Made by a program: the position numbers and the translations under genes. A DNA stretch of 64,000 nt. It comes from Burkholderiales bacterium (GTDB taxonomy: Bacteria; Pseudomonadota; Gammaproteobacteria; Burkholderiales; Burkholderiaceae_C). This document shows, piece by piece, positions 23,095 to 47,827 of the stretch. The number at the start of each line of letters is the position of its first letter. Position 1 is the first letter of the stretch. The DNA is taken from NCBI GenBank assembly GCA_021414305.1, contig JAIOOS010000017.1:186001-250000 (forward strand), written 5' to 3'. A model generated the notes under the pieces. It searched no databases. It saw nothing but the letters and a program-made list of their open reading frames with translations, and was not told where the DNA came from.

Positions 23095-24264
23095 ATGAGC
23101 AGAGACAACCGGGTAAGCACCGCGCCGCCCCCCGTGATTGCGAGGGTCGACGTGCACGTGCTGCGCTGGCCGGTGAAGGCGCCGGTGCGCACCTCGTTCG
23201 GCACCATGCACGACCGGCCCGCCGTGCTGGTGCGGGTCGAGGACGGCGAGGGCGCACACGGCTGGGGCGAGGCCTGGTGCAACTTTCCTTCCTGCGGCGC
23301 CGAGCATCGCGCCCGCCTGATCGAGACCGTGCTCGCCCCCCTGGTCACGGGCCGCGCGTTCGCCACGCCGCAAGCGGCGTTCGCCGAGATGACGGAGAAG
23401 ACCGCGGTGCTGGCGATCCAGTCGGGCGAGCCCGGGCCGATCGCCCAGGCGATCGCCGGCGTCGACCTCGCGCTCCACGACCTCGCCGCGCGCCGCCGCG
23501 GCCTGCCGCTCTGGCGCCAGCTCGCGCCCGACGCGAACGAAGGCAGCGGACGCAGCGGCGTCGCGGTCTATGCCAGCGGCATCAATCCCGAGCGCCCCGG
23601 CGAGACCGTGGCCGGGCTGCGCCGCGCCGGCTACAGCGCGTTCAAGCTCAAGGTCGGCTTCGGCGAAGCGCGCGACATCGCCAACCTCGCCGAAGTGCGC
23701 GCCGCCGCCGGCGCCGAGGCCGCCGTGATGGTCGACGCCAACCAGGCCTGGGACCTGGCCACCGCCAGCGCGATGGCCACCCGGCTGGCGGCTTCGGCGC
23801 CCGCCTGGCTCGAAGAGCCGCTGCGCGCCGACCGGCCCTGGCCGGAATGGCAGCGCCTCGCCGCCGCCTCGCCGATCCCGCTCGCCGCGGGCGAGAACAT
23901 GATCGGCGACGACGCGTTCGCAGCGCTCGTCGCCTCGGGCGCGATCGCCGTCGTCCAGCCCGATCTCGCCAAGTGGGGCGGGATCTCGGGCGTGATCGGC
24001 GTGATCGAGCGGGTGGCCGCCGCCGGCCTGCGCTACTGCCCGCACTACCTCGGCGCCGGCATCGGCCTGCTCGCCTCGGCGCACCTGCTCGCGGCGCGCG
24101 GCGGCGCGGCGAGCTGGCTCGAGGTCGATGCCAACGAGAACCCGCTGCGGACCCTCCTCTGCCCGCCGCTGGCGACGCTGGACAACGGCTGGATCACCCT
24201 GTCGGAAGCCCCCGGGCTCGGCTGCGAGCCCGACCTCGCGGCGCTGCGCTCCCTCTGCGCCTGA
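23095..24264 (+). CDS. Enolase-superfamily enzyme (mandelate racemase / muconate lactonizing type)
   Basis: 389 residues from ATG 23095 (398 from ATG 23068, same frame). N-terminal capping domain with HVLRWPVKAPVRTSFG. The barrel carries the KxK pair in FKLKVGFG (about residue 186), metal ligands in VDANQAW, LEEPLRAD and AAGEN, and the later HYLGAGIGLLAS motif. The superfamily abstracts a proton alpha to a carboxylate, so the substrate is a carboxylic acid, probably a sugar acid or a cyclic precursor. It is divergent from the importer operon, suggesting that the imported compound is its substrate, but the exact acid is not predictable. Confidence 0.85.
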   Translation: MSRDNRVSTAPPPVIARVDVHVLRWPVKAPVRTSFGTMHDRPAVLVRVEDGEGAHGWGEAWCNFPSCGAEHRARLIETVLAPLVTGRAFATPQAAFAEMTEKTAVLAIQSGEPGPIAQAIAGVDLALHDLAARRRGLPLWRQLAPDANEGSGRSGVAVYASGINPERPGETVAGLRRAGYSAFKLKVGFGEARDIANLAEVRAAAGAEAAVMVDANQAWDLATASAMATRLAASAPAWLEEPLRADRPWPEWQRLAAASPIPLAAGENMIGDDAFAALVASGAIAVVQPDLAKWGGISGVIGVIERVAAAGLRYCPHYLGAGIGLLASAHLLAARGGAASWLEVDANENPLRTLLCPPLATLDNGWITLSEAPGLGCEPDLAALRSLCA

Positions 24265-24307: not shown

Positions 24308-25639
24308 ATGAACTGGAACCGCGAACGAACGGCCTCCCTGCGTTGCCGGACGGCGCTCGCCGCGCTGCTCGTCGCCGCGGCGGCGCCTGCCGGCGCCGCC
24401 GACGACGCCGCTTCGGCGAACGCGGTGGCGTCCTCGGCCTCCCTTGCGGCTTCGGCCCCCGCCGCCGCTACTTCCGCGCCCTCGCCGGCGGTGCTTGCCG
24501 CGCGCGCCAGCCTCGAGCGCATCCGGGCGCTGCGCGCCCAGCGGCCGGGCGACGGCCTGCTCGCCTACTACCAGGCCAGCGCCCATGTCGCGCTCGGCGA
24601 GCGCGAGGCCGCGCTGGCCGAGCTGCGCAGCCTGTTCGGCCGGCGCCTGGGCATCGTTCCGGCCGCCGGCACCGGTTTCGATTCGCTCTGGGCCGATCCC
24701 GAGTTCCAGAGCGTGCGCGAGCGGCTCGCCAGCGAAGAGCCGCGCACCGCCGACGCACCGCCGTCGTTTCGCCTCGCCGACCCGCGCCTGATCCCCGAAG
24801 GCATCGCCTGGGATGCGGCGCGCAAGCGCTTCCTCGTCGGCAGCATCGCCCAGCGCAAGATCGTCGCCGTCGAGCGGCGCGGCAAGACGCGCGACTTCTC
24901 GCGCCCCGAGGACGGCCTGGACGCGGTGCTCGGCCTGGCCGTCGACGCGCGCCGCCGCCGGATCTATGCGGTCAGCACCAACGGCTTCGAGGACAGCGCG
25001 CGCACCGCGCGGCGCAACGCGGTGGTGGTCTACGACCTCGGGCGCGGCCGCAAGGTCGCGCGGCACGACGTGCCCGAGGCCCTGCAGCTCAACGACGTGG
25101 CCGTCGCCGCCGACGGCACGCTGTACGTCAGCGACTCGGAGGCGGGCTCGCTCTTTCGCATGCGGCCCGGCGAGCGCCGGTTCACTCTCTTCGGCACGGC
25201 CGGGGCCGCGCGTGGCGCCAACGGCGTGGCGGTCGCGCCCGACGGCACGGTCTACGTCACGCTCTCCACCGGCATCGGCCGGATCGAGCCGCGCGACGGT
25301 CGCCTCGCCCGCCTGCCGCAGCCGGACAGCGTGGTCAGCGGCGGCATCGACGGCCTGTACTGGCACGAGGGCGACCTGATCGGCGTGCAGAACAGCACCA
25401 ACCCGGGTCGCGTGATCCGTCTGCGCCTGGCCGACGGTGGCAAGCGCATCGACGGCCTCGTCGTGCTGCAGTCGCACCACCACCCGGCGTTCGTCGAGCC
25501 GACCACCGGCGCGATCGCCGGCAGCGCGATCCATGTTCTCGCCAACACCTTCGTCGGCCGCTACCAGCCCGACGGCAGCGTCAGGGACGCGACGACCGTG
25601 CAGCCGACGACGGTGCTGGCGGTGCCCCTGCGCCGCTAG
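24308..25639 (+). CDS. Secreted SMP-30/gluconolactonase-like beta-propeller protein
   Basis: 443 residues. Signal peptide (ALAALLVAAAAPAGAADDA) and an Ala/Ser-rich linker to about residue 55. A short helical TPR-like segment follows (LLAYYQASAHVALGEREAALAELRSL), then from about residue 160 a six-bladed propeller of SMP-30/NHL type (LIPEGIAWDAARKRFLVGS, LNDVAVAADGTLYVSDS, ANGVAVAPDGTVYVTL, GGIDGLYWHEGDLIGVQN). Family members are lactonases or binding proteins. Acidic metal-ligand positions are only partly evident, so the activity is uncertain. It starts 44 bases after the enolase-type gene and may share its transcript. Confidence 0.78.
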   Translation: MNWNRERTASLRCRTALAALLVAAAAPAGAADDAASANAVASSASLAASAPAAATSAPSPAVLAARASLERIRALRAQRPGDGLLAYYQASAHVALGEREAALAELRSLFGRRLGIVPAAGTGFDSLWADPEFQSVRERLASEEPRTADAPPSFRLADPRLIPEGIAWDAARKRFLVGSIAQRKIVAVERRGKTRDFSRPEDGLDAVLGLAVDARRRRIYAVSTNGFEDSARTARRNAVVVYDLGRGRKVARHDVPEALQLNDVAVAADGTLYVSDSEAGSLFRMRPGERRFTLFGTAGAARGANGVAVAPDGTVYVTLSTGIGRIEPRDGRLARLPQPDSVVSGGIDGLYWHEGDLIGVQNSTNPGRVIRLRLADGGKRIDGLVVLQSHHHPAFVEPTTGAIAGSAIHVLANTFVGRYQPDGSVRDATTVQPTTVLAVPLRR

Positions 25640-37376: not shown

Positions 37377-38102
37377 CTACGCCGTCTGGAAGTGGATCCT
37401 TGCGGGGCGGTCCATCGGCGCGAGCCAGCTCGAGTACGCCGCGCGCGCCGCTACGTGAACGGCCGCGACCCGTTCGGGCAGGCAGGTCAGGATCTGCTGC
37501 GCCGGCTGGACGGCAGGTCCGCTGGCCCGGGCCAGCTCGTCGGGGTGCGCAAGACACCACGCCTTGACGATGGCTTCGGTCACTTCGAAGTGCCCCTGGA
37601 ACGCCAGGTGCGGGCCGAAGACGAAGCCCTTGTTGAGGCAGTGCTCGCCGTAGAGCGTCCGGGTCGCGCCCGCGGGAATGCCGAAGGACTCGTAGTGCCA
37701 GTTGAAGGCATGCACCTGCGAGGCCGGCCCGAAGATCGTCCTTGCCGCGGGCGTCGTGCGCAGGCTGGCCCAGCCGATGTTCGGGCACGGGTTGCGATGC
37801 ACCGCGGCACCCAGGGCACGAGCGAGGAGCTGCCCGCCGAAGCAGTGGCCGAGCACCGGCACGTCGCGCGCAACCGCGTCGCGGGCCAGGTTCAGCTCGC
37901 TCGCAACCCAGGCGAACGGGTCGTTGACGCTGTCGTCGCTGCCCAGGAACACGACGCCGGCGAACGAACGCGCGTTCGCGGGAACGTCATCTCCGTCGCA
38001 GGGCCGGATGACCTGCGAGGCGATGCCCGCCTCGTCGAGGAACTGGAGAAGGTACCCCGGGTGCTGCAGGGGATCGTGCTGGAAGATGGCAATCGGTTTC
38101 AT
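37377..38102 (-). CDS. Class I glutamine amidotransferase-like protein
   Basis: 241 residues. GATase1 domain with nucleophile Cys87 in VLGHCFGGQLLA and a later GHFEV segment (about 171) that may supply His and Glu. An NWHYESF motif is typical of stand-alone GMP-synthase-like amidotransferases. No synthase domain or partner gene is nearby, so substrates are unknown; small-peptide or gamma-glutamyl hydrolases also use this fold. Cytoplasmic. Confidence 0.8.
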   Translation of the reverse strand: MKPIAIFQHDPLQHPGYLLQFLDEAGIASQVIRPCDGDDVPANARSFAGVVFLGSDDSVNDPFAWVASELNLARDAVARDVPVLGHCFGGQLLARALGAAVHRNPCPNIGWASLRTTPAARTIFGPASQVHAFNWHYESFGIPAGATRTLYGEHCLNKGFVFGPHLAFQGHFEVTEAIVKAWCLAHPDELARASGPAVQPAQQILTCLPERVAAVHVAARAAYSSWLAPMDRPARIHFQTA

Positions 38103-38212
38103 GTCGGTACACGAGCTGTTCGTGCAACCGTCAATCTAGGCGTCGCCGCGTAAAGAAGGCATCAAAAACGCACCGTGCCCGCAGCACGGTTCGCGCAGCG
38201 GGCGCCCGGTCC

Positions 38213-38683
38213 TCAGGCGGCCGAAGGCGCAGCCGACCAGCCGGCGATCGCGCGGTGCAGCGCCGCGGCATCGGCGGCCGCATTCAGGCGATCACGCAGG
38301 CCCCGGTCCGACAGCATTTCCGCAATTTCGGAGAGGATCTCGAGGTGGCGCTGGTTCGCCGCTTTCGGCACGAACAGGAACACGAACAGGCCCACGGGAA
38401 GCCGGTCCGGCGCGTCGAATTCGATCGGACTGCGCAGGCGCAGCACGGCCGCGAGCGGATCCTTCAGCGCGGTGATCCGACCATGCGGAATGGCGACGCC
38501 GTGACCGAGCCCGGTGGAGCCGAGCCGCTCGCGCGCCATCAGGTTGTCGGCGACCGTCGTCCGGGCCACGCCATGCTGCTGCTCGAACAGGAGGCCTGCC
38601 TGCTCGAACAGCCGGGCCTTGTTCGCGACGTCGACATCCACGAGGACGTCGCCGGCCGAAAGGATCGCCGACAGCTGGTTCAT
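38213..38683 (-). CDS. EIIA(Ntr)/PtsN-like phosphotransferase domain protein, kdp-linked
   Basis: 156 residues from ATG 38683. PTS EIIA type-2 domain with the phosphorylatable His at residue 67 in GHGVAIPHGRI, and FLFVPKAANQRHLEILSEIAEML. In E. coli, PtsN (EIIA-Ntr), when unphosphorylated, binds KdpD and stimulates kdpFABC. Here the gene starts 34 bases after the kdpC stop on the same strand and so is the fifth gene of the kdp operon. Whether it is the genome's only EIIA(Ntr) or a second, dedicated copy cannot be told from this window. A GGAGG lies 14 bases upstream, rather far. Confidence 0.85.
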   Translation of the reverse strand: MNQLSAILSAGDVLVDVDVANKARLFEQAGLLFEQQHGVARTTVADNLMARERLGSTGLGHGVAIPHGRITALKDPLAAVLRLRSPIEFDAPDRLPVGLFVFLFVPKAANQRHLEILSEIAEMLSDRGLRDRLNAAADAAALHRAIAGWSAAPSAA

Positions 38684-38717: not shown

Positions 38718-39299
38718 TCACGGCTTGGCCGATGCGGCGTCGAGCGCGAGGTTGAGCGCCAGCACGTTGACGCGGGGCTCGCCGAGAAACCCGAGCAGCG
38801 GCCGCACGGCATTCGCTTCGACCAGCGCCTCGACGCGCTCGACCGGAATCGCGCGCACGCGAGCGATCCTGCCAGCTTGGTAGCGCGCGGCGGCGAGGCT
38901 GATCTCCGGGTCGAGGCCGCTGGCCGAGGCCGTGACCAGGTCGACCGGGATCGGCGCCTTGTTGCCGGGATCGGCCGCGCGCAGCGCCTCGATCCGGCCC
39001 TTGACCGCATCGAGCAGCGCCGGATTCGTCGGCCCCTGGTTCGAGCCGCTCGATCCGCCGGCGTTGTTTGCCATCGGCGACGTCGCGGAAGGACGGCCCC
39101 AGAAGTGCTTCGGGTCGCTGAAGCTCTGGCCGATCAGCATCGAGCCGACGGGCTTGCCCTCGCGCTCGACCAGGCTGCCGGCCGCCTGCCGGGGGAACGC
39201 GGCCTGGCCGATGCCGGTGACGACGAGCGGGTAGGCGATCCCCGTGACGAGCGACAACAGCGCGAAGAGCACGAAAGCGGGACGAAGGATGGCGTTCAT
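38718..39299 (-). CDS. kdpC: KdpC, K+-transporting ATPase C chain
   Basis: 193 residues. N-terminal membrane helix ([22 protein letters not shown]), then the periplasmic domain with [24 protein letters not shown] and the C-terminal [10 protein letters not shown]. It has the usual length. It stabilises the KdpFABC complex and raises ATP affinity of KdpB. Its start is 18 bases after the kdpB stop, the usual kdpFABC order. Confidence 0.95.
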
Positions 39300-39316: not shown

Positions 39317-41434
39317 TCAGGCGAGGTGGGCCGCCGAGAGCAGCAGATCGATCAGCTTGATGCCGATGAAGGGCACGATCAGGCCGCCGACGCCGTAGAT
39401 CAGGACGTTGCGGCGCAGCAGCTCGGCGGCGGGTGCCGGGCGGTACTTCACGCCCTTCAGCGCGAGCGGAATCAGAAAGACGATGACGATCGCGTTGAAG
39501 ATCACCGCCGAAAGGATCGCCGACGAGGGGCTCGCCAGGCGCATCACGTCGAGCGCGGCGAGCTGCGGATAGGTGGTCGCGAACGCCGCCGGAATGATGG
39601 CGAAGTACTTCGCCACGTCGTTGGCGATCGAGAACGTGGTCAGCGAGCCGCGCGTCATCAGCAACTGCTTGCCGGTCTCCACCACCTCGAGCAGCTTGGT
39701 CGGATTCGAGTCGAGGTCGACCATGTTGCCGGCCTCCTTCGCCGCCTGCGTGCCGGTGTTCATGGCGACGGCGACGTCGGCCTGGGCCAGAGCCGGCGCG
39801 TCGTTGGTGCCGTCGCCGGTCATCGCCACGAGCCGGCCTTCCGCCTGGTACTCGCGGATCATCTTCAGCTTCGCCTCGGGGGTCGCCTCGGCGAGGAAGT
39901 CGTCGACGCCGGCCTCGGCGGCGATCGCCGCGGCGGTCAGCCGGTTGTCGCCGGTGATCATCACCGTCTTGATGCCCATGCGGCGCAGCTCGGCGAAGCG
40001 CTCCTTGATGCCGCCCTTGACGATGTCCTTGAGCTCGACCACGCCGAGCGGCCTGGCGCCGTCGGCGACGACGAGCGGCGTGCTGCCGCGCCGCGCCACT
40101 TCCTCCATGGCTTGCACCACGCCCGCGGGAAACGATCCGCCCAGCGCCTCGACGTGCTTCCTGATCGCGTCGCCGGCGCCCTTGCGGATCTGCCGCGCGG
40201 GCGCGTCGCCCGCGGCCGCGAGGTCGACCCCGCTCATTCGCGTCTGCGCGGTGAAGGCGATGAACTTCGCCGCGAGCGAAGCCATGTCGCGCTCGCGCAG
40301 GTTGAACTTCTGCTTGGCGAGGACCGTGATGCTGCGGCCCTCGGGCGTCTCGTCGGCCAGCGACGAGAGCTGGGCCGCGTCGGCGAGCTGCTGCTCGGTC
40401 ACGCCGGGCGCAGGATAGAAGGCCGAGGCCTGGCGGTTGCCGAGGGTGATCGTGCCGGTCTTGTCCATCAGCAGCACGTCGACGTCGCCGGCCGCCTCGA
40501 CCGCGCGGCCCGAGGTGGCGATGACGTTGGCCTGCATCATCCGGCTCATGCCGGCGACGCCGATCGCCGAGAGCAGCGCGCCGATCGTCGTCGGGATCAG
40601 GCAGACGAGCAGCGCCACCAGCGTGGTGACCGTCACCGCCGAGCCGGCCTTGGCGACGTCGACGCTGAACAGCGACATCGGCAGCAGCGTGACCACTACC
40701 ACCAGGAAGACGATGGTCAGGGCCACGAGCAGGATGTTGAGGGCGATCTCGTTCGGCGTCTTCTGCCGGCGCGCGCCTTCGACCATCGCGATCATCCGGT
40801 CGAGGAACGCCTCACCCGGATTGACGCCGACGCGCACCACCAGCCAGTCGGAGAGCACCCGCGTGCCGCCGGTGACCGAGGCGAAGTCGCCGCCGGCCTC
40901 GCGGATGACGGGCGCCGATTCGCCGGTGATCGCGCTCTCGTCGACCGAGGCCACGCCTTCGATGACTTCGCCGTCGAGCGGAATCGTGTCGCCGGCCTCG
41001 ACCAGGACGACGGCGCCCTTCCTCAGCTCCTCGGCCTCCTGCGGATGCCACGACGCGCCGTGCTTCGGCACGCGTCCGGAGGCGGCGTCCCTGGGCGCCG
41101 CGAGAACCTTGGCGATGACCTTCTTCTTCATGCCGCGCAGGCTCGCCGTCTGCGCCTTGCTCCGGCCCTCGGCCAGGGCCTCGGCGAAGTTGGCGAACAG
41201 CACCGTGAACCAGAGCCAGACGGCGATGGCGATGATGAACGCCGCCGGCGCCTCGCCGCGGCCGAGGAGCGCCTGCACGCCGAGGACGGTCGTCAGGATG
41301 CTGCCGACGTAGACGACGAACATGACCGGGTTGCGCCACTGGACGCGCGGGTCGAGCTTGACGAAGGCATCGCGGACGGCCGGGCGCACGAGCGCCGGAT
41401 CGAACAGCGAGAAGGCGGTGCGGGTGGAGGCCAT
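39317..41434 (-). CDS. kdpB: KdpB, P-type ATPase subunit
   Basis: 705 residues from ATG 41434. P-type ATPase with the phosphorylated Asp in [10 protein letters not shown] (about 320), TGES in [10 protein letters not shown], hinge motif [22 protein letters not shown] and membrane helices at both ends. It hydrolyses ATP to drive high-affinity K+ uptake through KdpA. A GTG three codons earlier is a possible start. The gap to kdpA is five bases. Confidence 0.96.
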
Positions 41435-41439
41435 GGCGC

Positions 41440-43251
41440 TCACTTGGTGGAAAACAGCATCAGGTGCTCGATCACCGGCCCGAGGGCGAGCGCCGGCACG
41501 TAGTTCAGCAGGCCGACCAGCAGCACGCTGCCGATCAGCAGGAACACGAACAGGGGGCCGTGCGTCGGCAGCGTCCCGGCCGTGACCGGCAGGCGCTTCT
41601 TCGCCGAGAGCGAGCCGGCGATGGCGAGCACGGGAACGATCACGCCGAAGCGGCCGAACCACATCGCGATCGCGAGCATCGTGTTGTAGAACGGCGTGTT
41701 CGCGGACAGGCCGCCGAAGGCGCTGCCGTTGTTGTTGCCGGCCGAGCTGAACGCGTAGAGGATCTCCGAGAGGCCATGCGCGCCCGGGTTGGCGATGCCG
41801 GCCCGGCCGGCGTCGGCGCCGACCGCGATGGCGGTGCCCGCGAGCACGAGGATCGGCGTGACGAGGATCGCGATCGCGATCATCTTCATGTCGAAGGTCT
41901 CGATCTTCTTGCCCAAGTACTCGGGCGTGCGGCCGATCATCAGGCCGGCGATGAAGACGGTGAGGATCGCGAACACGAGCATCCCGTAGAGGCCGGCGCC
42001 CACGCCGCCGAACACGACCTCGCCGAGCTGCATCAGCACCAGCGGCACGGCGCCGCCGAGGGGCGTGAAGGAGTCGTGCATGGCGATGACGGCGCCGCAC
42101 GACGCAGCAGTGGTGATCACCGCGAACAGGGTCGACGCGGCGATGCCGAAGCGCGACTCCTTGCCTTCCATGTTGCCGCCCGGCTGCAGGACGCTCGCGG
42201 TCTGGTCGACGCCGAACGCGGGCAGCAGGGGGTTGCCGCCCTGTTCCGCCGGCGAGATGACGGCGACCGCGACGACGAACATCAGCGTCATCGCCGCCAG
42301 CAGCGCCCAGCCCTGGCGGCTGTCGCCGGCCATGCGGTCGAAGGCGAACACCAGCGCCGCCGGGATCAGGAAGATCGACAGCATCTGCATGAAGTTCGTG
42401 AGCGGCGTCGGGTTCTCGTACGGATGCGCCGAGTTGACGTTGAACGGGCCGCCGCCGTTGGTGCCGAGCATCTTGATCGCTTCTTGGGAGGCGATCGGGC
42501 CCATGGGCAGGCTCTGCGTCGGCGCCTTCTGCTCCTCCATCACCGGCTCGCCCTTGGCGTCCTTCAGCGGCTGGCCGTCGGGGCCGTTCTTCGCCTGGCT
42601 GTAGGTGTTGACCTCGAGCGTCGTCACGTCCTTGTAGGCGTCGAAGTTCTGGATCACGCCCTGGCTGACCAGGAACACCGCGAACAGCAGCGAGAGCGGC
42701 AGCAGCACGTAGAGCGTCGAGCGGGTCACGTCGACCCAGAAGTTGCCGACGGTTCCCGACGAGCGCGCGACGAAGCCGCGCACCAGCGCCCAGACGACGG
42801 CGATGCCGGTCGCGGCCGAGAGGAAGTTCTGCACCGTGAGCGCGAGCATCTGCGTCAGGTAGCTCATGGTCGATTCGCCGCCATAGCCCTGCCAGTTGGT
42901 GTTGGTGACGAAGCTCACCGCCGTGTTGAACGACGAGCCCGCCTCGACGCCGGCCATGCCCTGGGGATTGAGCGGCAGCACGCCCTGCAGGCGCTGCAGG
43001 GCGTAGACCGCGATCACGCCGACGACGTTGAAGGCGACGAGCGCGATCGCATAGCGCTTCCATCCGCTGCTCTCCGACGGTTCGACGCCGGCGAGTCGAT
43101 AGAGGCCGCGCTCGACCGCGGCCACCGGTGCGAGCCAGCGCGGCAGGCGACCCTCGGCCACGGCGGCCAGCCAGATGCCGAGCGGCCAGGCGGCGGCGAG
43201 CAGCACCAGCAGGTAGACGACCAGCTGGATCCAGGATTGCGACGAGGGCAT
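41440..43251 (-). CDS. kdpA: KdpA, K+-translocating subunit
   Basis: 603 residues from ATG 43251, about ten membrane helices. The four pore-loop repeats are visible as [40 protein letters not shown] and [13 protein letters not shown]. It forms the K+ selectivity filter in the inner membrane. The ATG overlaps the kdpF stop (ATGA). Confidence 0.96.
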
Positions 43252-43340
43252 CACAGGTTCTCCGCGTTGAACAGCGCGACCAGCAGGTAGACGAAGAGGA
43301 CGATCGCGACGACGGCGCAGATCAGGTACAGGCCGCTCAC
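43251..43340 (-). CDS. kdpF: KdpF, small subunit of the K+-transporting ATPase
   Basis: 29 residues from GTG 43340, one membrane helix ([20 protein letters not shown]) and the typical FNAENL end. It stabilises the complex. The TGA overlaps kdpA ATG by four bases, and the GTG overlaps the stop of the preceding small gene (GTGA, 43337-43340). It is too short for most automated callers. Confidence 0.88.
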
Positions 43341-43432
43341 TTGCGATCTCCCAGCGCGGCACAGCCGGCCACGAGGCCGAGCAGTGCCGCCGAGAACACG
43401 GCGATCAGGAAGATGTACATGAGGTCTTGCAT
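43337..43432 (-). CDS. Extra 31-residue membrane peptide in front of kdpF
   Basis: From ATG 43432: [19 protein letters not shown], then [11 protein letters not shown]. One membrane helix and a short basic end. It is chained by a GTGA overlap to kdpF, so it is translated with it and almost certainly real. From memory, a similar small gene precedes kdpF in several Burkholderiales. It could be a second KdpF-like helper. It is the first gene of the operon, and a tandem 11-bp repeat lies 41-62 bases upstream. Confidence 0.7.
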
Positions 43433-43472
43433 GGTCTGGCCATCCGGTAGGAAGCGGAACGTTAGGCATCTG

Positions 43473-43494
43473 GGCATAAAGACGGCGTAAAGAC
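43473..43494. promoter_or_regulatory. Tandem 11-bp repeat, candidate KdpE box
   Basis: GGCATAAAGAC (43473-43483) is followed directly by GGCGTAAAGAC (43484-43494), ten of eleven positions identical with period 11. In the kdpFABC direction it reads GTCTTTACGCC GTCTTTATGCC. OmpR/PhoB-type regulators such as KdpE bind direct half-sites spaced by one helical turn. It lies in the 116-base divergent region between the two kdp units. Confidence 0.65.
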
Positions 43495-43548: not shown

Positions 43549-46257
43549 ATGGCAAGCGACGACGCGCGACCCGATCCCGACGCACTCGTCGAGCGCATAC
43601 GCGACGAGGAAGCGAAGGCGGCGCGCGGGCGGCTGCGCATCTACTTCGGCTCCTCGGCCGGCGTCGGCAAGACCTTCGCGATGCTCGGCGCGGCGCGTGC
43701 CGCCAAGGCGGCGGGCACCGACGTCGTCGCCGGCGTGGTCGAGACGCACGGGCGCGCCGACACCGTGGCCCAGCTGCAGGGGCTCGATCTCCTGCCGCGG
43801 CAGACCATCGCCACCGCGGGCAAGGCGACGTTGTCGGAATTCGACCTCGACGGCGCGCTCGCCCGGCACCCGGCGCTGATCCTCGTCGACGAGCTCGCGC
43901 ACTCGAACGTGGCCGGGGCTCGCCACCCGAAGCGCTGGCAGGACGTCGAGGAGCTGCTCGCCGCCGGCATCGACGTCTGGACCACGCTCAACGTGCAGCA
44001 CCTCGAAAGCCTGAACGACGTGGTCGGCGGCATCACCGGCGTGCGCGTCCAGGAGACGTTGCCCGACACCTTCTTCGACCGCGCCGACGAGGTGGTCCTC
44101 GTCGACACGCCGGCCGACGAGCTGCTCGCCCGGCTCAAGGCCGGCAAGGTCTACGCCGAGACCCAGGCCGAGCGCGCTGCCGCCAACTTCTTCCGCAAGG
44201 GCAACCTGATGGCCCTGCGCGAGCTCGCCCTGCGCCGCACCGCCGACCGAGTGGAGGACGACGTCCAAGCATACCGCGTCGACCGCTCGATCAGCCGGGT
44301 GTGGAAGACCGAGGCGGCGCTGCTCTGCTGCATCGGACCGGGCGCGAACGCCGAGCACATCGTTCGCGGCGCGGCGCTGCTGTCGCAGCAGCTCGCCGTC
44401 TCATGGCACGCCGTGTACGTGGAGACGCCGGCGCTGCAACGGCTGCACAAGGACGAACGCGAGCGGATCCTGCGCGCCGTCAAGCTCGCCGAGGACCTGG
44501 GGGCGACGACGGCGGTGCTGCCGAGCGAGGCCGTGGCGCCGGCGGTGGTCGCGCACGCCCGCCGCCACAACCTCTCGAAGATCGTGATGGGCCACAACCA
44601 GGCGAGCATGTGGCGACCCGCGGGCACGCTCGCGCAGCAGCTCGGCCGGCTGGCGCCCGACGTCGACCTGATCGAAATCGGCGCCCCGGCCGAGACGCGC
44701 GGGCCGGTGCGCAGCAGGAGCGACGCCGACTCGCGCCGCACCGGGCTCGACGCCAAGGGCTATCTCGTCGCCGCGGCAGCCTGCGCGCTGCTCACCGCGG
44801 CGACGATGCCGCTCGAGGCGGTGCTCGACCTGCCCAACATCGTCATGCTGTTCCTTCTCGCGGTGCTCGGCGTCGCGCTGCGCTACGGGCGCGGGCCGGC
44901 GGCACTCGCTTCGGTGCTGAACGTCGCGGCCTTCGACTATTTCTTCGTCCCGCCCAAGCTCTCGTTCAGCGTCAGCGACTTCCAGTACGTGCTGACCTTC
45001 GGCGTGATGCTCGCCGTCGGCCTGATCGTCGGCCAGCTCACCGCCGGGTTGCGTTACCAGGCACGCATCGCCACGCACCGCGAGCGCCGCTCGCACGCCC
45101 TGTTCGAGGTGGCGCGCGACCTCTCGAGCGTGCTCGCCACGGAGCAGGTGGTCGAAGCCGCCGCGCAGGCGGTGGCGCGCGAGTTCCGCGCCCGCGCGCA
45201 CGTCTTCGTGCTCGGGAACGACGATCGTCTCGGCGGCGTCGCGGCGGGGCCGGAAGACGCGGGGCTGGATGCCGGCACCGCCCGCTGGGCCTTCGATCAC
45301 GCCCAGGCCGCCGGCCTCGGCACCGACACGCTGCCCGGCAGCGCCTGGCTCTACCTGCCGCTCAAGGCGCCGATGCGCACCCGCGGCGTGCTCGCGCTCA
45401 AGCCGGAGGAGCCGCGGCTCCTGCTCGTGCCCGAGCAGCGGCGCCAGCTCGAGACCTTCGCCGCGCTGACCGCGATCGCCCTCGAGCGCGTGCACTACGT
45501 CGAGATCGCGCAGGGCGCGACGGTGCAGATCGAATCGGAGCGCTTGCGCAACTCGCTGCTGGCGGCGCTGTCGCACGACCTGCGCACGCCGCTCGCCGGC
45601 CTGGTCGGCCTGGCCGACACGCTGCGCCTGACGCCGCCGCCCCTCAGCGGCGAGCAGGCGGAAATCGCCGAGGCGCTGCAAAGCGAGGCGCTGCGCATGA
45701 GCACGCAGGTGAACAACCTGCTCGACATGGCGCGCATCGAGAGTGGGGCGATCCGCCTGCGGCGCGAATGGCACTCGGTCGAGGAGATCGTCGGCAGCGC
45801 CGTGCGGGCGACGGCGCGCACGGTCGCGCCGCGCGTCGTCAGCACCGACCTGGCCGCCGACCTGCCGCTGGTGGAATGCGACGCGGTGCTGATCGAGCGG
45901 GTGATCGTCAACCTGCTCGAGAACGCGGCGAAGTACACGCCGCCGGCGACCCGCATCCGCATCTCGGCGCGGCCTCTTGACGGCCTCATGCGCGTGGAGG
46001 TCGCCGACAACGGGCCGGGAATCCGCGCCGGGCAGGAAGCGGCGATCTTCGAGAAGTTCACGCGCGGCACGCGCGAGTCTTCCATCGCCGGCGTCGGCCT
46101 CGGCCTGGCGATCTGCAAGGCGATCGTCGAGGCGCATGGCGGAACGATCGTCGCGCAGACGGCGGAAGGCGGCGGCGCTGCGCTGGTGTTCACGCTGCCC
46201 CTGGGCACGGCCCCGGTCTTCGAGGCCGACGAAGCGCACGCGACGAGCTCGCCATGA
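43549..46257 (+). CDS. kdpD: KdpD, sensor histidine kinase
   Basis: 902 residues from ATG 43549 (an upstream ATG at 43522 adds nine). Order: KdpD N-terminal domain with Walker motif GSSAGVGKT (34-42), a USP-like domain (about 250-370), four membrane helices (about 405-500, YLVAAAACALLTA to VGLIVGQLTAG), a GAF region, HisKA with His in LSHDLRTPLAGLVG, N box NLLENAAKYT and G2 box GVGLGLAICKAI. It senses K+ limitation and phosphorylates KdpE. It is divergent from kdpFABC and overlaps kdpE by four bases (ATGA). Confidence 0.95.
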   Translation: MASDDARPDPDALVERIRDEEAKAARGRLRIYFGSSAGVGKTFAMLGAARAAKAAGTDVVAGVVETHGRADTVAQLQGLDLLPRQTIATAGKATLSEFDLDGALARHPALILVDELAHSNVAGARHPKRWQDVEELLAAGIDVWTTLNVQHLESLNDVVGGITGVRVQETLPDTFFDRADEVVLVDTPADELLARLKAGKVYAETQAERAAANFFRKGNLMALRELALRRTADRVEDDVQAYRVDRSISRVWKTEAALLCCIGPGANAEHIVRGAALLSQQLAVSWHAVYVETPALQRLHKDERERILRAVKLAEDLGATTAVLPSEAVAPAVVAHARRHNLSKIVMGHNQASMWRPAGTLAQQLGRLAPDVDLIEIGAPAETRGPVRSRSDADSRRTGLDAKGYLVAAAACALLTAATMPLEAVLDLPNIVMLFLLAVLGVALRYGRGPAALASVLNVAAFDYFFVPPKLSFSVSDFQYVLTFGVMLAVGLIVGQLTAGLRYQARIATHRERRSHALFEVARDLSSVLATEQVVEAAAQAVAREFRARAHVFVLGNDDRLGGVAAGPEDAGLDAGTARWAFDHAQAAGLGTDTLPGSAWLYLPLKAPMRTRGVLALKPEEPRLLLVPEQRRQLETFAALTAIALERVHYVEIAQGATVQIESERLRNSLLAALSHDLRTPLAGLVGLADTLRLTPPPLSGEQAEIAEALQSEALRMSTQVNNLLDMARIESGAIRLRREWHSVEEIVGSAVRATARTVAPRVVSTDLAADLPLVECDAVLIERVIVNLLENAAKYTPPATRIRISARPLDGLMRVEVADNGPGIRAGQEAAIFEKFTRGTRESSIAGVGLGLAICKAIVEAHGGTIVAQTAEGGGAALVFTLPLGTAPVFEADEAHATSSP

Positions 46258-46961
46258 GCGAGCCGGCGCCCACCGTCCTGCTGGTCGAGGACGACCGCAA
46301 CATCCGCCGCTTCCTGCGGGCCTCGCTCGAAGCCGAAGGCTGGCGCGTGTTCGAAGCGGAGACGGTGAAGGAGGGTCTGGCCGATGCCGCGGCCAGGAAG
46401 CCCGACCTGGTGATCGCGGATCTCGGCCTGCCCGACGGCGACGGCGTCGAGCTGATCCGCGCCCTGCGCCTCGGCTCGCACGTGCCGGTGATCGTGCTCT
46501 CGGCGCGCTCGGAAGAGCGCGACAAGGTGCGCGCCCTCGACGCCGGCGCCGACGACTACATCGAGAAGCCCTTCGGCGCTTCCGAGCTGCTGGCCCGCGT
46601 GCGCGCCAACCGGCGGCGCCAGCAGAGCCTGCGCGACCCCGACGCCGGCACCCGCGCGACGCTCGGCGACGTCGAGGTCGACTTCGCCGCGCATCGGGTG
46701 ACCAAGGGCGGCCGCGAGGTCCACCTGACGCCGATCGAGTTCAAGCTGCTCTCGGTGCTGGTGGCCAATGCCGGCAGGGTGCTGACGCATCGCCAGCTCC
46801 TGCGCGAGGTGTGGGGGCCGTCGCGCGTCGAGCACAGCCACTACCTGCGCGTGTTCATGGGCACGCTGCGCCACAAGCTGGAGGACGATCCGGCGCAGCC
46901 GCAGATCTTCCTCACCGAGACCGGCGTCGGCTACCGGCTGGTGCTGCCCGCGAGCGCCTAG
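46254..46961 (+). CDS. kdpE: KdpE, response regulator
   Basis: 235 residues. Receiver domain with Asp56 in VIADLGLPDGDG, the acidic pair VEDDRN at the N-terminus and Lys in YIEKPFG. The C-terminal OmpR-type winged helix includes VHLTPIEFKLLSVLV and LRHKLEDDPAQPQIFLTETGVGYRL. It activates kdpFABC, probably through the tandem repeat at 43473. Its stop overlaps the convergent exonuclease stop. Confidence 0.95.
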   Translation: MSEPAPTVLLVEDDRNIRRFLRASLEAEGWRVFEAETVKEGLADAAARKPDLVIADLGLPDGDGVELIRALRLGSHVPVIVLSARSEERDKVRALDAGADDYIEKPFGASELLARVRANRRRQQSLRDPDAGTRATLGDVEVDFAAHRVTKGGREVHLTPIEFKLLSVLVANAGRVLTHRQLLREVWGPSRVEHSHYLRVFMGTLRHKLEDDPAQPQIFLTETGVGYRLVLPASA

Positions 46962-47827
46962 TCGCATGCGCGCCGGCCGGCGCTAGCCCGGCCGACCGGC
47001 CTCGTGCTTTCTTCCGCCGAGGGCCAGGCAGCGCTCGAGAAGGCGCGGCGCGTTCGCCTTTTCGTCCAGGACGCGAACGCCGGCGTCGGCCCGCGCGAGC
47101 GCAGCGTGCCGACCGCGCGGAACAGCTTCTCATCGCTGCGCAGCGTGGCGAGCTGCTTGAACAACAGCGCCAGCTCCCGGCGCTCGCCGAGCAGCTCGGG
47201 CGGGAAAGCCTCGATCGCGCCATGGCGGTTCAGCAGCCGTGCCGCACCGACCGCGCCGATGCCGGCGATGCCCGGATAGCCGTCGGCGGCATCGCCGACC
47301 AGGGCGAGCCAGTCGGGAATCAGCGCCGGCGGCACGCCGAACTTCCTGCGCACACCCTCGGCGTCGCGGATCGTCTTGCCGCGGCGGTCGATCTGCACCA
47401 CCCGGTCGGCGACGACGCATTGCGCGAGGTCCTTGTCGGGCGTCCAGATGCAGACCTTCTCCACCTTCGGGTCGGCAGCGGCGATGCGCGCCGCCGAGGC
47501 GAGCGCGTCGTCGGCCTCGAGCTCGACCATCGGCCAGGTGACCACACCCATCGCGACGAGCGCCTCCTCGAGCGGATGGAACTGCGCCCACAAGGCCGGC
47601 TCGATGCCCGCACCGGTCTTGTAGCCCGGCCACAGGTCGTTGCGGAAGGATTCGATCACGTGGTCGGTGGCGACGCCGACGTGGGTTGCGCCCTGCTCGA
47701 TCATCTCGAGCACCGACTGCAGCACGCCGACCACGGCACCGAGCGGCCGGTCGCCCTTCGTGAAGCGGCGCAGGCCGTAGAAATGGCGGAACAGTTCGTA
47801 GGTGCCGTCGACCAGGTGGACGATCAT
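46958..47827 (-). CDS. Stand-alone 5'-3' exonuclease (FEN/PIN type), probable C-terminal frameshift
   Basis: 289 residues as read. PolA-type 5' nuclease without polymerase: VHLVDGTYELFRHFYG, the acidic cluster ELEADDALASAARIA, WTPDKDLAQCV, and the helix-hairpin-helix VGDAADGYPGIAGIGAVGAARLL. It processes flap or branched DNA and RNA primers. After GPTPAFASWTK the frame becomes Arg/Ser-rich and unlike the family. The alternate frame after an A homopolymer (TTTT at 47059-47062 on the plus strand) gives KANAPRLLERCLAL, which does fit. One base is probably missing. The corrected gene would end at 46983. Confidence 0.85.
   Translation of the reverse strand: MIVHLVDGTYELFRHFYGLRRFTKGDRPLGAVVGVLQSVLEMIEQGATHVGVATDHVIESFRNDLWPGYKTGAGIEPALWAQFHPLEEALVAMGVVTWPMVELEADDALASAARIAAADPKVEKVCIWTPDKDLAQCVVADRVVQIDRRGKTIRDAEGVRRKFGVPPALIPDWLALVGDAADGYPGIAGIGAVGAARLLNRHGAIEAFPPELLGERRELALLFKQLATLRSDEKLFRAVGTLRSRGPTPAFASWTKRRTRRAFSSAAWPSAEESTRPVGRASAGRRACD

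Follow-up and report, generated by a model that had tools for sequence, protein, structure and literature searches.

The 22 bp at positions 43473-43494 (minus strand) are very probably the KdpE site that switches on the kdp pump, as judged by comparison with the kdp promoters of relatives. The site was analysed within a 64,000-nt stretch of DNA, here called the window, from a Burkholderiales bacterium (GCA_021414305.1, contig JAIOOS010000017.1; whole genome 5.28 Mb). In the reading that we favour with considerable confidence, phosphorylated KdpE binds this site and acts on the kdpFABC promoter in one direction, by PhoB-like class II activation from the promoter-proximal place, and a second box of the same kind controls a glutamine amidotransferase gene. 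Each 11-bp half-site would be occupied by one of two KdpE subunits in head-to-tail arrangement; KdpE would substitute for a missing -35 element and recruit RNA polymerase towards kdpFABC only. A broader proposal, which we think probable with a good deal less assurance, is that two boxes are the general rule at the kdp promoter, that of E. coli included, that the proximal box alone suffices, and that the amidotransferase clade is a second conserved KdpE target in Burkholderiales.

The site was originally predicted as a tandem 11-bp repeat, and its coordinates and letters are exact: positions 43473-43483 read GGCATAAAGAC and positions 43484-43494 read GGCGTAAAGAC. The two half-sites are adjacent and identical at 10 of 11 bases. 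Read on the minus strand, towards kdpFABC, the candidate box is GTCTTTACGCC (43494-43484) followed by GTCTTTATGCC (43483-43473). Its half-site hexamers, TTTACG and TTTATG, repeat with period 11 and have the direct TTTAYR form of a KdpE box. The exact 22-mer is found at one place in the window when up to 3 mismatches are allowed (none in 100 shuffles) and has a single occurrence in the whole 5.28-Mb genome. The bare tandem repeat is nevertheless weak evidence, as such repeats are not rare within the window. Adjacent 11-mers with no more than one differing base begin at eight positions, in four clusters; besides the one at 43473, these lie at 23853, 24742-24745 and 45226. What lifts the repeat at 43473 above chance is that its motif, orientation and place are conserved and that, when both strands of the window are scanned with a box profile, only two places reach 12 bits, 43473-43494 (26.7 bits) and 38147-38168 (23.2 bits). 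A chance tandem repeat, to which the four equally good clusters would lend some weight, is rejected because the motif is conserved in kdp upstream regions; orientation and spacing are also kept in relatives, a second site has the same architecture, and we regard this explanation as having practically no prospect of being correct.

The repeat is located, as predicted, between the divergent kdpFABC (minus strand) and kdpDE (plus strand) units, and KdpA, KdpC, KdpF, KdpD and KdpE match their family models. On the minus strand, kdpF (43251-43340; Pfam PF09604, NCBIfam TIGR02115) has a GTG start and is followed by kdpA (41440-43251; TIGR00680, 755.8 bits), kdpB (39317-41434; start inferred by position, DKTGT motif recognised by eye) and kdpC (38718-39299; Pfam PF02669). 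On the plus strand, kdpD occupies 43549-46257 (Pfam PF02702; 1111.4 bits to NF007793, just below the cut-off of 1123) and kdpE occupies 46254-46961.

The E. coli KdpE box is described, in the available part of the report, as two direct 6-bp half-sites, TTTATA-N5-TTTACA, with period 11, a description that rests on an alignment of several bacteria; the same part names R193, R200 and T215 of KdpE as important for DNA binding (PMC3264566). The window KdpE shares 144 identical residues with E. coli KdpE (225 aa), scores 333.2 bits to NF007820 (cut-off 325), as befits the cognate regulator, and retains the contact residues as R199, R206 and T221. Since the half-sites match the footprinted E. coli box and the contact residues of KdpE are kept, the repeat is predicted to be a KdpE box of known kind. 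It resembles the E. coli site kdpFABC_BS in its direct TTTAYR half-sites, its 5-bp spacer, its orientation towards kdpFABC and its regulator, an orthologue of E. coli KdpE in which the contact residues are kept. The reading of the repeat as a direct-repeat site of an OmpR-family regulator has therefore fared well: the sequence is that of a KdpE-type box, conserved in the group and aimed at kdpFABC. That it would define a KdpE box in this group holds in part, as a conserved box is present in the group but a box of this kind had already been described in E. coli, in the part of the report consulted (PMC3264566). In Mycobacterium smegmatis, KdpE binds a 22-bp site upstream of kdpF; the likeness to the window box lies in this length and place and is drawn from the description only, and the M. 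smegmatis kdp promoter is, unlike that of the window, of SigF type, according to the available part of that paper (PMC5401905).

Conservation upstream of kdp in relatives, on which the original prediction had staked the box, was then found. The 22-bp box profile was trained on 80 upstream sequences, of which 79 came from the named set (the best 80 of 589 listed kdpA loci) and one was that of the window itself. The collection comprised 181 records. Thirteen without a usable kdpA start were set aside, including that of the second genus mate G288, in which only 92 bp of contig precede kdpA; the remaining 168 were thinned to 152 unique upstream regions. The bit thresholds were picked after the data were seen. 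A box of at least 15 bits is present in 140 of the 152 unique regions, whereas the reversed regions give 5 and the opposite strand gives 3; 9 of the 152 have no box at 12 bits. Among the held-out regions, which took no part in training, motif and place are kept in 70 of 72 at the same threshold of 15 bits; the reversed control gives 2 of 72, and the opposite strand 0 of 72. Three regions (L083, L086 and L087) are left out of the 72 as they had been found by a box-pattern search and were guaranteed a box; with them, the counts are 73, 2 and 0 of 75. The large excess of forward boxes over both controls shows that the box points to kdpFABC. It is the motif that is conserved and not the literal 22-mer, which is found at up to 3 mismatches in 9 of 200 genomes of the order, its own included (reversed pattern, 4 of 200); for five of the eight other matches, the surrounding stretch of about 1.5 kb to either side contains no kdpA. 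In many family members, the half-site is shifted from TTTAYR to TTGAYR.

Direct repeats of about 11 bp are common in the OmpR/PhoB family, and the pho box of phoA shares its geometry with the window box, so that a site for another regulator of this family has to be weighed. We hold this to be very unlikely. The motif is TTTAYR and not TGTCA, the box tracks the kdp genes across the set, kdpDE adjoins it, and, in the family sample, boxed orthologues of the amidotransferase (described below) are found only in genomes with kdpA.

KdpE, taken as the regulator, would have two places at a typical kdp promoter. When 140 kdp promoters are aligned on their best box, a half-site scoring at least 5 bits is found at +43 in 89 and at +32 in 28, and no offset from -60 to +90 other than 0, 11, 32 and 43 exceeds 12 of 140. 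The pattern xAxxxT is found at +62 in 121 of the 140, that is, 8 bp past the proximal box place (without L083, L086 and L087, the counts for half-sites at +43 and +32 and for xAxxxT at +62 are 87, 28 and 119 of 137). From these recurring offsets, the typical kdp promoter is predicted to consist of a distal box, 10 bp, a weaker box three helical turns on, 8 bp and the -10 element. Most of the kdp promoters examined, including that of E. coli, carry putative second-box half-sites exactly 32 bp further, followed by 8 bp and xAxxxT. In E. coli MG1655, the order is ATTTTTATACT TTTTTTACACC, 10 bp, ATTTTTGCGAA ATCTTTGCAGC, 8 bp and TACCCT, with the proximal repeat scoring 13.8 bits versus 32.3 bits for the distal one. 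The proximal place of Yersinia is weak (6.7 bits, L072). As the E. coli footprint covers -72 to -50 only, in the available part of the report (PMC3264566), we found no published support for the proximal place. The window differs from E. coli in that its only kdp box, next to the predicted -10, corresponds in position to the weaker, proximal repeat of E. coli and not to the footprinted site.

When the window is excluded from the training of the model, it scores 26.4 bits at the proximal place and -48.7 bits at the distal place. The box ends 8 bp before the predicted -10 element TAACGT (43459-43464, minus strand), the spacing that xAxxxT has in the relatives; an E. coli-type distal site would be separated from the -10 by about 40 bp, a stretch that contains another repeat. 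Among the 152 upstream regions, the best box is at the distal place in 126 and at the proximal place in 14, with 3 unclear and 9 without a box; 7 of the 14 in the proximal class, the window among them, have no upstream half-site. The window box would be the promoter-proximal of two places 32 bp apart; the distal box is absent in the window, whose kdpDE is divergent. The window box was also considered as a distal box, and this was rejected: nothing box-like is present at +43 (-15.6 bits), there is no -10 at +62 (-7.0), and the predicted -10 lies 32 nt before a small open reading frame (ORF), similar to relatives. A second xAxxxT, at +30 after the best box, is also common (78 of 140), so that the -10 assignment by spacing alone is not unique; the T of this motif may be the T of the proximal left half-site, and the motif is perhaps a second start site.

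The proximal half-sites of the relatives might instead be promoter sequence, a -35 variant, with one true box at varying distance. The weakness of the left proximal half-site (28 of 140, as above) would fit such an arrangement, but only 10 bp separate the right one from the -10, where a -35 element would have 17 bp, and in its 89 promoters it fits the half-site profile of the main box. Moreover, a complete box occupies exactly the proximal place at the kdp promoter of the window, upstream of the amidotransferase genes of G202, G324 and the window, and at the sites directed at kdpD that are described below. We therefore consider a -35 variant unlikely and retain the proximal place as a putative KdpE box.

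By eye, no TTGACA-like hexamer is present 17 bp before TAACGT. As the box ends 8 bp before the predicted -10 and covers the -35 region, PhoB-like class II activation is likely, with transcription predicted to start downstream of TAACGT, near 43452, towards kdpFABC. Class II promoters with a PhoB pho box likewise have direct 11-bp repeats over the -35 place. E. coli phoA has TGTCAC-10-TATAGT and the window has TTTATG-10-TAACGT, the last hexamer lying 10 bp before the -10 in both; from this equal geometry, we infer activation of the same class at the window kdp promoter. The pho box differs from the window box in motif and regulator. The second window site repeats this 8-bp spacing between box and predicted -10, as do the boxes directed at kdpD in two relatives, G436 and G355.

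The divergent order of the window is uncommon. In 250 sampled genomes of the family, 94 kdpA places were found in 93 genomes, and at 84 of these places kdpD lies behind kdpC in the same orientation. Of the remaining ten, three are divergent (the window, G436 and G355) and one is convergent, while six, on contigs that have no kdpD match, could not be judged. Among loci with both genes found (n = 54), kdpD is downstream on the same strand in 49, upstream on the same strand in 2 and divergent in 3, the last three all being copies of the window. The genus mate G388 (KdpA identity 86%) has the ordinary kdp gene order and a distal box; on this one comparison, the divergent arrangement and the loss of the distal box would both be recent in the window's line. 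In G436 and G355, which are two species from a single other genus, kdpD and kdpF are separated by a region with two boxes, one in each direction. Their kdpD-directed boxes read GTCTTGATGCC TTCTTGATGCG or GTCTTGACACC TTCTTGATGCA, score 21.0 and 20.4 bits and lie 8 bp from CACACT. The divergent intergenic regions are at 1560-1760 of L164 (G436) and 650-1760 of L169 (G355), and in G355 the amidotransferase gene stands between the kdpD and kdpF boxes.

A profile scan of both strands of the window at 12 bits finds no kdpD-directed box. The suggestion of a single site shared by the two divergent units is accordingly unsupported, as the divergent relatives have a separate box directed at kdpD and the window has none. 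For a single KdpE box that activates both kdpFABC and the divergent kdpDE, it can be said that the box is flanked by the two units and that about 65 bp separate its centre from the start of kdpD, a distance at which class I activation would be possible. The half-sites are, however, directional and aimed at kdpFABC, kdpD has its own box 8 bp from CACACT in G436 and G355, and the box still faces kdpF at the 84 of 94 kdpA places where kdpDE lies downstream of kdpC. Such dual activation appears improbable to us, and the one-way site is preferred. The divergent relatives have one box per direction, and kdpDE of the window is probably without KdpE feedback; the single site may have a weak effect on kdpD.

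The second candidate KdpE box (38147-38168, minus strand) reads TTTTTGATGCC TTCTTTACGCG and is followed after 8 bp by a predicted -10 element, TAGATT (38133-38138), with transcription predicted to start near 38126. Downstream lies the gene for a class-I glutamine amidotransferase of 241 aa (37377-38102, minus strand; Pfam PF00117), which, given the same spacing, would be under the same control. The protein contains Cys87 in GHC and His171 and Glu173 in H-F-E, which we take to be the class-I catalytic triad; its best match in a PDB sequence search is 3m3p. The loose 21-mer that first revealed the second box occurs at two places in the genome versus one for the reversed control. This result alone means little, and the amidotransferase claim is therefore carried by the comparison of orthologues. 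A spaced pattern of box and -10, composed after both sites were known, finds at up to 2 mismatches in the 5.28 Mb only the two window sites, both with 0 mismatches (reversed control, 1).

In the 250 family genomes, 19 amidotransferase orthologues, including that of the window, have at least 47% identity; the other 26 matches have 33-41%. An upstream box is present in 19 of 19 orthologues (7.6 to 23.2 bits) and in 0 of the 11 weaker matches that were scanned (best -1.1 bits; 15 further ones were left unscanned). Over all amidotransferase upstream regions scored, the weakest box called has 7.6 bits (L206), and the best region called boxless has 6.5 (L231). When the 19 upstream regions are read backwards, one reaches 7.5 bits (L201, 8.7); on the opposite strand, two reach 7.5 bits (L200 and L206), in intergenic regions shared with kdp boxes. 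Twelve of the 19 orthologues are located within about 8 kb of kdp genes; the seven that are unlinked to kdp (G282, G202, G317, G343, G426, G217 and G133) are still boxed, with 9.7 to 19.7 bits. kdpA is present in 18 of the 18 other genomes with an orthologue versus 74 of the 231 without (Fisher p 5e-9, a value that overstates independence as the genomes are related).

Order-wide, 28 more amidotransferase matches were found, one with an upstream region that is too short; of the 27 others, four have a box of at least 9.5 bits, and the rest have at most 6.5. Two of these four (L222, L229, L237 and L249) adjoin kdpA or kdpD; the upstream region of L229 also reaches 8.0 bits when reversed. In a tree of 58 sequences, the 19 orthologues and these four form one clade with support of 100/100; the four from outside the family are labelled "box" from their own scores (9.5, 13.8, 16.5 and 26.9 bits), and the row L226, labelled "no box", had an upstream region too short for testing. 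A member of the KdpE regulon would be expected to have the box in orthologues, to lack it in paralogues and to co-occur with kdp, which is the pattern found, with the box absent in the scanned paralogues. The boxes of the orthologues, the co-occurrence with kdpA and the single clade lead us to place this amidotransferase clade in the predicted KdpE regulon.

The KdpE box itself is already known and ordinary in kind. kdpFABC had been called the sole target of KdpE in E. coli, and adeP, uxaA and uxaC were then added as direct targets, according to the available part of the report (PMC7657598); KdpE targets beyond kdp are thus not new as an idea. In the open-licence literature, we found no description of a proximal KdpE box, a separate kdpD-directed box or an amidotransferase target, and an earlier description is possible. 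What merits work at the bench is the architecture with a proximal box only, together with the amidotransferase target. KdpDE is a textbook two-component system, and the window genome naturally parts the proximal box from the distal one. If the architecture is as proposed, a conserved second box beside the -10 would account for the contact of KdpE with RNA polymerase. The amidotransferase target, if true, would connect the metabolism of nitrogen or glutamate with potassium starvation. The usual counter-ion of K+ is glutamate; the low-potassium response would take in an enzyme that handles amides or glutamate, and the amidotransferase clade would gain a physiological context.

Several other genes of the locus deserve mention. 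The small ORF (43337-43432, minus strand; 31 aa) lies between the promoter and kdpF and overlaps the kdpF start. An ORF is present at this place in 122 of 136 unique kdp promoters with a recognised kdpF, by loose automatic criteria that include some wrong frames; by the same kind of criteria it is absent in E. coli, Yersinia, Rahnella and Pantoea. The window ORF has no Pfam or NCBIfam match, and its product is membrane-like. It is possibly an overlooked Kdp subunit or a leader peptide. Directly after kdpC, a PtsN-like PTS IIA gene (38213-38683, minus strand; Pfam PF00359) scores 122.6 bits to TIGR01419, below the cut-off of 138.7. This is an extra copy, 71% identical to the copy on G000:C16. 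A PtsN-like match is present in 246 of the 250 family genomes, and, among the matches listed, two are present in the window's own genome, G270, G332 and G335. IIA-Ntr has been suggested to interact with KdpD, in the available part of the source (PMC3610689). Beside kdpE, positions 46958-47827 (minus strand) encode a stand-alone 5'-3' exonuclease (Pfam 5_3_exonuc_N, the DNA polymerase I-like N-terminal part). In the genus mate locus L181 (G388:C184), a gene resembling a CorA-type Mg transporter, recognised by eye, is located downstream of kdpC, just before kdpD.
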